A stretch of 64,000 nucleotides of DNA from Gammaproteobacteria bacterium (GTDB taxonomy: Bacteria; Pseudomonadota; Gammaproteobacteria; Xanthomonadales; Wenzhouxiangellaceae). Positions 6,819-31,099 of this stretch are shown here, in pieces (position 1 is the first letter of the stretch; each line of letters begins with the position of its first letter). Location of the stretch: contig JAHJQV010000045.1 in the NCBI GenBank assembly GCA_018819105.1, positions 1 to 64,000 of the forward strand, read 5' to 3'. A program made the position numbers and the translations under genes. The notes below the pieces were generated by a model. It searched no databases. It was given only the letters and a program-made list of their open reading frames with translations, and had not been told where the DNA came from.

Positions 6819-6822
6819 TCTA

Positions 6823-7096
6823 GTGTACCCCGCCGGAAATACTGTGATATTCAGAACATACCTGAGGCTGCAGTACAGATGCGAATAACAGTGTCTGGGC
6901 AGTGAATGGCAAGCCCTTGACAAGGATTACAACGCCGTAATGCAGCCTCAGGTGCGCTCCCGCAGGGCGAGCCGGAAAGCACTCATCCGCTGTGTTATGG
7001 CTCTTGGCCATGGAATGGCCATGACCTGCGAGCCATGCCTTGCGGCTAAGCGCTTTCCGACTCGCTGAATGTTACAGTATTTCCGGCGGGGTACAC
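6823..7096. mobile_element. MITE-A copy 1 (274 bp)
   Basis: The element has perfect 23-bp terminal inverted repeats (first 20 bases GTGTACCCCGCCGGAAATAC) that continue imperfectly to about 32 bp. A TA dinucleotide flanks the left end and TT the right. Inside are two large hairpins: arms CCTGAGGCTGCA (6861-6872) and its complement (6941-6952), and 14-base arms at 6967-6980 and 7052-7065 with one mismatch, enclosing TGGCCAT-GGA-ATGGCCA (7005-7021). It is about 95 percent identical (14 differences) to the copy at 29057-29330. A 63-codon minus-strand frame recurs in both copies but is probably spurious. No transposase is encoded. TA flanks suggest mobilisation by an IS630/mariner-type enzyme (inference). 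Confidence 0.85.
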
Positions 7097-7123
7097 TTGT
7101 GACCATTGCGTCGCTGAGGCCAA

Positions 7124-29024: not shown

Positions 29025-29056
29025 GCCGCTGGTCGCCGCCGACTTCTCGCAAGCTA

Positions 29057-29330
29057 GTATACCCCGCCGGAAATACTGTGACATTCAGAGCATACCTGAG
29101 GCTGCAGTACAGACGCGAATCGTAGTGTCTGGGCAGTCAATGGCAAGCCCTTGACAAGGATTGCAACGCCGTAATGCAGCTTCAGGGGCGCTCCCGCAGG
29201 GCGAGCCGGAAAGCACTCATCCGCTGTGTTATGGCTCTTGGCCATGGAATGACCATGACCTGCGAGCCATGCCTTGCGGCTAAGCGCTTTCCGATTCGCT
29301 GAACGTTACAGTATTTCCGGCGGGGTACAC
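29057..29330. mobile_element. MITE-A copy 2 (274 bp)
   Basis: This copy has the same length and orientation as the one at 6823 and differs at 14 of 274 positions. TA dinucleotides flank both ends (29055-29056 and 29331-29332), the expected 2-bp target duplication of an IS630/mariner-like event. The left end has one substitution (GTATACC instead of GTGTACC). The internal hairpins are kept; the C-to-T change in the right arm of the first hairpin leaves a G-U pair in plus-strand RNA. The last base of the element plus the TA forms the TAG stop codon of the minus-strand gene that follows. Confidence 0.87.
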
Positions 29331-31099
29331 TAGTGCTCTGCAGTTGACAGTCGGGCAGCCGCTTCCGTTAGTCCGGCGGTTTCGATGCCCTGCTCAAACA
29401 CGATGTCCACGGCGATGTCGCGTGCCGCCAGTCGCTGCAGATCCTGTTTCAGATCGGCGGGAATGCTGCCCTGATCCTTCAGCAAAGCAGTGGCGGTGGG
29501 GTGATCACCATCGCCCTGGATGGTCAGAATCAGCCGGCTCAGGTTTTCACTGGCGGCAGCAAAGCGCTGCGGGTCGATGCGGTATAGACCGCTGTCTGCA
29601 TCGCGGCTGAAGGCGCCCTGCTCGCGGAAGAAGTTGAAGCGCACCAGGTTGGCCTGACCGTGGGCGCTGGATGAGCCAAACCGTACCGAACGGAAAATGC
29701 TGGCGAGGAAGGTCACGTAATTGTCCATCAACTCGCCGTCGCTGATCTCATCGCGCTGGCGCAGCTGTTCAATCATGTACAGGCCCAGCACGTCGGCCTT
29801 GCCTTCTTCCAGCCATGAGGCATGCTCACGCAGCGCCTCACGCACGCTGCCGTTGTTGTTGATGGTGTTCTTGATGCCCAGTCCATGCGCCACCTCATGA
29901 AACATGGTGTTGGCAAAAAACGCATCAAAGGTGACGTGCTCGCGCTGATCGGCAGCGATCAGCTGGTCAGCAATCGGCAGCAGGATCTGGTCGAATTTCG
30001 CGCGCATGGCATTCTTTAATTGCAGCCGACGGGTGCCTTTCTGCAGCTGCACGCGCTCGTCGTTGGGCAGGTTGATGGCAATGGTCTTGGAGCCGGCATT
30101 GCTGTGGCCAGCGTAGTAGATCACATCATACGCCCCCAGGTCGGCATCACTGCCCGGTGACTCCTGCTTGTAGACATCGGCCACCGGCAGACCGCGCTGC
30201 AGTTCCGGCAGGTAATCGGCAAACCGCGCCAGCCGCTCACTCCAGTCCAGATCCTTGATCAGTACATACGCCTCGTAAGCGGCCCGGTAGCCGAACAACT
30301 GGTCTTCATAGGTTTCGATCGGACCGTACACCAGTTCGATGGGGTTGTCCTTCATCTCCATCCAGGCCATGTCACTGGCCAGGTAATCGTCGCTGAGTAT
30401 GGCCTCGGCGCGCATACGCAGATAATTGGCAAAGGCCTGGTTGTCGGCCAGCTCGGCGGCATCGCGCAGACAGTCAGCCGCGCGTGCCAGTTCATCCGCC
30501 CACACGGTGTGGTATGGCAGCAGACTCAGCGCGCCGCGCTCATCGCGCCGCACCAGTGAATACAGGCCGGTCTTGCCGGGCTGATCCCAGTCCTCGAACT
30601 CCTGTTTGCTCATGTCGGCGGGATAGAAGCGCGCGCCGGGCGGTTTTGCGCCGACATCACGCAGGAACGGGCGGTCGCCGTCAAGACGGTCCCAGGGGCC
30701 GTAGTTGATGTCGGCAAAACGCCGCAGCCCGGCATCGTCGATGTCCGTCAGCAGCGCATCGCGATCGCCCCAGGCCTGCGCCCAGAACAACTGATCCATG
30801 ATCCTGCTGGCCTCGATCAGCTTCACCAGCAGCTGCTGCTGGCGCAGGCTGAGATGGCTAAGATCCGCCTGCAGCTTGAACGGCGCATAGATGTCCAGGC
30901 GCGCCGGATCAAAGTTTGCTGCCATCTGTGCCGGCCTGGCCGCAGCGGACTCGTTCTCGCGCGCGCTGGCATCGCTGTCGGTAGCAGCCGGCGCGGCGTC
31001 TGGTGCGGTGGGCGGTTCCGGCTGCTGCTGGCAGCCGTTCAACATGGCTGCGACAGTCAGCAGCAGGGCAAAGATGGGAAGACGTGACAGTGAGGGCAT
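29330..31099 (-). CDS. M49 (dipeptidyl-peptidase III-like) zinc peptidase, lipoprotein
   Basis: The 589-residue protein begins with a lipoprotein signal (lipobox LNGC, lipidated C23) and a Pro/Ala/Asp/Ser-rich linker to about 60. The catalytic domain has HEVAH (401-405) and EEGKAD (431-436), which correspond to the HExxGH and EECRAD motifs of DPP III. The zinc motif is thus the five-residue HExxH form, as reported for some bacterial DPP III proteins. The likely role is cutting dipeptides from short peptides at the cell envelope. Its stop codon TAG is formed by the edge of MITE-A, so the original C-terminus may have been altered. MITE-B lies just upstream. Confidence 0.82.
   Translation of the reverse strand: MPSLSRLPIFALLLTVAAMLNGCQQQPEPPTAPDAAPAATDSDASARENESAAARPAQMAANFDPARLDIYAPFKLQADLSHLSLRQQQLLVKLIEASRIMDQLFWAQAWGDRDALLTDIDDAGLRRFADINYGPWDRLDGDRPFLRDVGAKPPGARFYPADMSKQEFEDWDQPGKTGLYSLVRRDERGALSLLPYHTVWADELARAADCLRDAAELADNQAFANYLRMRAEAILSDDYLASDMAWMEMKDNPIELVYGPIETYEDQLFGYRAAYEAYVLIKDLDWSERLARFADYLPELQRGLPVADVYKQESPGSDADLGAYDVIYYAGHSNAGSKTIAINLPNDERVQLQKGTRRLQLKNAMRAKFDQILLPIADQLIAADQREHVTFDAFFANTMFHEVAHGLGIKNTINNNGSVREALREHASWLEEGKADVLGLYMIEQLRQRDEISDGELMDNYVTFLASIFRSVRFGSSSAHGQANLVRFNFFREQGAFSRDADSGLYRIDPQRFAAASENLSRLILTIQGDGDHPTATALLKDQGSIPADLKQDLQRLAARDIAVDIVFEQGIETAGLTEAAARLSTAEH

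Follow-up and report, generated by a model that had tools for sequence, protein, structure and literature searches.

A probable IS5-type MITE with a conserved inverted pair of bulged hairpins, found in a gammaproteobacterial genome and shared as a structure by many Pseudomonadota

The window, by which we mean the whole 64,000-nucleotide stretch of DNA that was analysed, contains two copies of a non-coding repeat at 6823–7096 and 29057–29330, both placed between convergent genes near the gene ends. Each copy is 274 bp long, and the two differ by 14 substitutions and no indels. The terminal inverted repeats (TIRs) of copy 1 are perfect over 23 bp and those of copy 2 carry one change, at position 3. 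Sequences flanking the two copies are only 24% and 33% identical and are therefore unrelated, so that a segmental duplication, which had been named as a possible refutation, can be set aside. The repeat folds with a free energy of -153.5 kcal/mol (z = -12.4 relative to shuffled sequences, with 0 of 200 shuffles equally good) and includes two internal hairpins with outer arms of 12 bp and ~14 bp. A sequence-only reading of this DNA had described the length, the second copy with its 14 differences, the 23-bp perfect ends and hairpin arms of 12 and 14 bases; all of this was confirmed, the perfect ends for copy 1.

The limits of the element were set from 21 full copies, which had the flank pattern CTA-GTGTACCCC...GGGGTACAC-TAG. 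Read as a transposon, this pattern is CTAG-TGTACCCC...GGGGTACA-CTAG, that is, an element with a 4-bp target duplication, and the outermost G and C of the 274 bp belong to the CTAG target site. The element proper of copy 1 (274-bp subtype, plus strand) thus spans 6824–7095 (272 bp), preceded by CTAG at 6820–6823 and followed at 7096–7099 by CTTG, one change from CTAG. Its terminal stem, delimited by fold and sequence, has its left arm at 6824–6854 and its right arm at 7065–7095, both annotated on the plus strand. Within this stem, covariance model R1 identified hairpin module 1 in antisense at 6856–6955 (minus strand, E = 3.5e-6) and hairpin module 2 in sense at 6972–7062 (plus strand, GTGTT...GCCTTG, E = 5.7e-21); the latter module is among the 23 sequences from which R1 was built. 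A linker at 6956–6971 forms a mini-hairpin (CCC-GCA-GGG) between the modules. Copy 2 (29058–29329, plus strand) has the same arrangement, with module 1 at 29090–29189 (minus strand, E = 7.5e-6), module 2 at 29206–29296 (plus strand, E = 1.1e-20) and an intact CTAG on the left (29054–29057) and on the right (29330–29333).

Sequence searches of the element's own genome assembly (3.14 Mb in 68 contigs) located it at about 40 places, some 20 of which were full-length and many of which were cut by contig ends. Since 22 contig ends fall inside copies, the assembly evidently breaks on the repeat and the copy number is a minimum. Two subtypes of 274 bp and 265 bp were present, distinguished by a stretch of ~12 nt in the first hairpin. 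The element is thus non-coding, MITE-like mobile DNA: 272 bp long, with 23-bp perfect ends and about 40 dispersed locations, as the sequence-only reading had anticipated when it proposed a mobile element with many copies across the genome. Remnants were also seen: palindromes that retain both ends but have lost the interior (46 bp at L143 2035–2080; L272 1801–1850), solo ends at the borders of genes and, in Salinivibrio, a remnant of type 3. Short remnants are as expected, because long palindromes lose their middle.

Nearly all copies are bordered on both sides by CTAG or by sequence derived from it, and other YTAR targets are rare (one copy, L006, lies between TTAA and TTAG). The tetranucleotide CTAG is strongly depleted in the window, where 16 occurrences were seen compared to ~230 expected from base composition. 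In a relative (G022), the stop codon (CTC-TAG) of a gene read as hslU is the exact insertion point of one copy. Thirteen relatives lack the element at this site, and two of these (L165 and L170) keep the native ctctag; the empty site is documented by this comparison for the left junction only, the right junction not being alignable.

A 4-bp CTAG duplication points to IS5-type rather than IS630-type transposition. An IS630-type parent, which the sequence-only reading had suggested, was rejected because the duplication is CTAG (rarely another YTAR) and not TA, and because the ends of a sister family are those of IS5-family insertion sequences (IS). This sister family comprises module-bearing MITEs of ~271 bp with ends CTAG-GGYCTGTTGACGTTT in Pseudomonas-like genomes and plasmids, the plasmid hosts being Azotobacter chroococcum, Halomonas and P. 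aeruginosa PA83. Identical ends, again flanked left and right by CTAG, bound an IS5 transposase gene on Halomonas pHA020_1 and A. chroococcum pAcX50f; these insertion sequences measure 863 bp including the target duplications, and their transposase matches NCBIfam IS5_3 with 281 bits. Only the terminal ~17 bp are common to the GGYCTGTTGACGTTT-ended IS and the sister MITE, and the covariance model found no module within the IS. It was previously shown that MITEPsy1, an IS5-type MITE, transposes and duplicates CTAG or YTAA (PMC3189936). From its target and from the sister family, we infer that the window element is likewise an IS5-type MITE.

Neither the element's own genome nor those of relatives yielded a transposase gene bounded by TGTACCCC, and the own assembly contained no DDE_Tnp_1 gene; insertion sequences may have fallen into gaps of the assembly, or the parent may no longer exist. 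Several candidates were rejected. In G022 (L246), a DDE_Tnp_1 gene seemed to be bounded by TGTACCCC, but these were one-mismatch chance matches and the ends do not match, and the transposase genes of other relatives have different ends. An IS1380 parent was discarded on account of the CTAG duplication and the lack of PF13701 in the genome, and mobilisation by a RAYT was discarded because the genome's two Y1 genes are flanked by other repeats.

The interior of the element consists of two bulged hairpin modules of ~90 bp, placed in inverted order with the mini-hairpin between them and enclosed by a terminal stem of ~30 bp. Each module runs through an outer stem of ~15 bp, CNGYGTT, a 7-bp stem, TTG, a 5-bp stem with its loop, CNGC, a second 7-bp stem, GCCTTG and the other side of the outer stem. 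An alignment of 66 distinct hairpins (one from L114 was a false match and was excluded) showed that the bulge motifs (CNGYGTT and GCCTTG) are conserved while the stem sequences are freely exchanged. Ten positions, C19, G21, G23, T24, T25, G66, C68, T69, T70 and G71 in the numbering of the first sequence, were invariant in 23 representatives, and on our reading of the fold the two conserved TT stretches would be bulges on opposite strands. Relatives within the same family have elements of equal size and ends whose hairpin stems differ in sequence, and module order was minus, plus in every element in which both modules were detected. Longer versions of 330–333 bp were also observed (L131 1570–1650, L043, L044, L037, L075, L099 and L102). 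The three that were read (L131, L043 and L044) carry a related sub-hairpin of ~66 nt at an identical invariant spot (AAC^GCCGC) although the remaining module stems are unrelated, which suggests module swapping.

Of 249 Pseudomonadota genomes from 132 genera, 63 genomes from 37 genera had a module match to the covariance model (E ≤ 1e-4 per genome), with E values that are rough owing to short calibration and with genomes close to the threshold not checked individually; about 20 loci were checked for the motifs by eye and for the inverted partner by the model. Several genomes had at least 17 matches, whereas 315 kb of viral contigs (35 degenerate-pattern loci), which served as negative control, had none. 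The module-bearing elements are ~250–290 bp long and have at least six unrelated end sequences; further ends enclosing a module pair included CTAG-TGGTCCTTCAACC, CTAG-TGGGCCATGCGG, TTAA-CCCGGCGGCAAT and CTAG-GAGCCTGTCGGACTTAA, besides the CTAG-GGYCTGTTGACGTTT of the sister family. Six far relatives measured 247–274 bp, comparable to the window element, and a copy in Guyparkeria hydrothermalis adjoins a tRNA gene. No module was found in Salinivibrio. Searches with blastn gave no match to the window element in plasmids, where its ends gave only a chance match in a coding gene, and none in phages. Rfam had no match in the window at gathering scores, and the hairpins of eight module-bearing loci yielded only sub-threshold hits to MIR8788 (≤ 41 bits relative to a cut-off of 124).

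Among known systems, MITEPsy1 of Pseudomonas syringae (PMC3189936) resembles the window element in having no coding capacity, TIRs, a 4-bp CTAG or YTAA duplication and presumably an IS5 transposase acting in trans. However, it is 100 bp long with 18-bp ends matching ISPsy2, whereas the window element is 272 bp long, with a terminal stem of ~30 bp, a conserved double-hairpin interior and no parent IS found. Coxiella QMITE2 (PMC10969869), whose ends measure about 25 bp, and other structured MITEs such as Correia and ERIC are also 100–300 bp long, strongly folded and intergenic, and in the literature surveyed none was found with one structured core common to many unrelated end families and genera. 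REP, REPIN and BIME sequences with TnpA-REP (RAYT), and TIRtrons, likewise consist of bulged palindromes in inverted pairs with many intergenic copies and structure in the DNA (PMC3733652, PMC8266576). Yet REPs are 20–50 nt long and carry a GTAG tag, whereas the modules are ~90 nt long with two opposed bulges, are untagged and lie within transposon ends with a target duplication; linkage to a RAYT was likewise not seen, and the GGGGWSAS motif of TIRtrons is unmatched in the modules. Integron attC sites are recombination hairpins in which the stem sequence is free and extrahelical bases are fixed. The modules share these free stems and fixed unpaired bases but differ from attC in lacking the RYYYAAC/GTTRRRY box pair (the invariant GYGTT lies opposite GCCTTG, with no AAC partner), in having no link to an integrase and in forming inverted pairs within transposon ends. 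No description of the element emerged from the literature covered (which took in few subscription journals and not ISfinder), whether by its ends or as a double-hairpin MITE, and the sources searched offered no named family, in keeping with the sequence-only reading, which had recognised none.

Covariation in the stems was pronounced across families: 87.8% of cells were paired, compared to 56.9% in shuffled and at most 42% in slid alignments, with double changes in 27 of 30 stem pairs, and a second set, which was fitted to the model and partly overlaps the first, had 92.0% paired. Selection on RNA should leave many G-U pairs. Here, G-U accounted for 7 and 10 cells in the two sets relative to 599 and 707 Watson-Crick cells and was rarer than A-C mismatches. 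The same was examined among 20 aligned copies of the own genome, in which single changes gave 13 G-U and 19 A-C (P = 0.38), 20 transversions broke pairs, and the one double change was not a standard swap, so that the compensatory changes sought in the hairpin arms were nowhere convincing. As G-U is not favoured over A-C within the genome, individual copies appear to decay regardless of RNA pairing. The extremely stable fold and the position of both window copies between convergent genes had spoken for a stable functional RNA, as first supposed, or for a domesticated terminator or mRNA stabiliser. Against these stand the substitution counts, the presence of one module per orientation in each element and a gene context no different from random: by crude ORF calling, 47 elements lay between 10 convergent, 27 tandem and 10 divergent gene pairs, at similar distances from 3' and 5' gene ends, which gives no sign of terminator use. 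We therefore regard an RNA function as very improbable. The occurrence of this interior in short mobile elements whose ends are unrelated, in roughly one in four of the proteobacterial species sampled, suggests that what spreads is the folded DNA and not an RNA. Paired columns were less diverse within the genome than unpaired columns (0.033 vs 0.121, the latter partly explained by an indel-rich loop), which could indicate weak ongoing selection. Low diversity in paired columns, together with strict Watson-Crick pairing almost free of G-U intermediates, would also be expected if palindromes self-correct their arms by replication template switching, so that pairing is automatic, covariation is functionless and only the bulge motif and the ends are inherited. 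The data do not separate such rewriting from maintenance of the structure at the DNA level in spreading copies. Nevertheless, correction should erase the GYGTT and GCCTTG bulges, which across many genera hardly vary and remain unpaired, and module and element length are nearly fixed; we consider template switching as the whole explanation quite unlikely.

The bulges can also be read as the mark of a single-stranded hairpin substrate on which a strand-specific HUH enzyme or tyrosine recombinase would act, much as with REP or attC. The inverted pair would then ensure that either strand presents one functional module, and the IS5-like ends would move the element by a separate route of their own. 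Consistent with this are bulges that are invariant and fixed in place amid otherwise free, purely Watson-Crick stems, the documented strand-specific recognition of bulged REP hairpins (PMC8266576) and the ~66-nt sub-hairpin that looks as if swapped at one invariant spot. However, no enzyme gene was found adjoining modules, the other repeats around the two Y1 transposases and the missing GTAG tag point elsewhere, and the target duplication speaks for a DDE reaction, all of which makes a recombinase substrate unlikely. The reading that we favour, and consider probable, is a non-autonomous IS5-type MITE whose interior is a conserved inverted pair of bulged DNA hairpins with a probable role in mobility. 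In such an element, a transposase supplied in trans, predicted to be of the IS5 type by analogy with the sister family, would cut at TGTACCCC.../...GGGGTACA and insert the element at CTAG, duplicating 4 bp. The interior would not be a deletion remnant of an IS; it would be a conserved hairpin pair, of the kind that many Pseudomonadota carry inside short elements whose ends are unrelated, kept folded as DNA in spreading lineages and decaying after insertion, with no visible selection on RNA pairing. The hairpins may extrude as a cruciform or fold in single strands, and might then hold both ends together or bind a structure-specific protein; a role in mobility is the most likely one for the module. 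More tentatively, the modules could represent an undescribed class of mobile DNA structure, inverted bulged hairpins that act when folded, are recognised by some structure-specific protein and travel through Pseudomonadota by means of the ends of many different transposons.

As a probable IS5-type MITE the element is ordinary; what is unusual is its conserved structured interior across unrelated end families and many genera. MITE interiors are usually taken as the meaningless remnant of a deleted transposase gene, whereas here it is the ends that change and the interior that is conserved. Should spreading depend on the folded DNA, the long-standing question of why bacterial MITEs fold so strongly becomes directly testable, and the covariance model provides a means to annotate a class of repeat that roughly one in four of the Pseudomonadota genomes sampled carries.

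Other repeats were also seen. In another taxonomic family of the order, two double-hairpin elements lie close together at L105 (G059; 584–782 and 966–1165); their ends include AGGGTCTCTTCAGCGCCATTCGCGCG, and CTAG is lacking. Another repeat family, bounded by TAGCCCGNATTATTCATGAAA, contains AACGCCGCAG and has no GCCTTG motif. Its members are inserted into copies of the element or adjoin them, with CTAG or TTAG common to both; examples are found at L051 (~600–690), at L047 (where ~190 bp interrupt the core at GTTA) and in the flanks of L010, L011 and L022. Partnerless solo ends CTAGTGTACCCCGYC (L137–L141, L147–L155, L110, L112, L118, L119, L123 and L135) were commoner than a reversed-pattern control and often lay directly 3' of gene stop codons, the TGA or TAG being supplied by the end itself.
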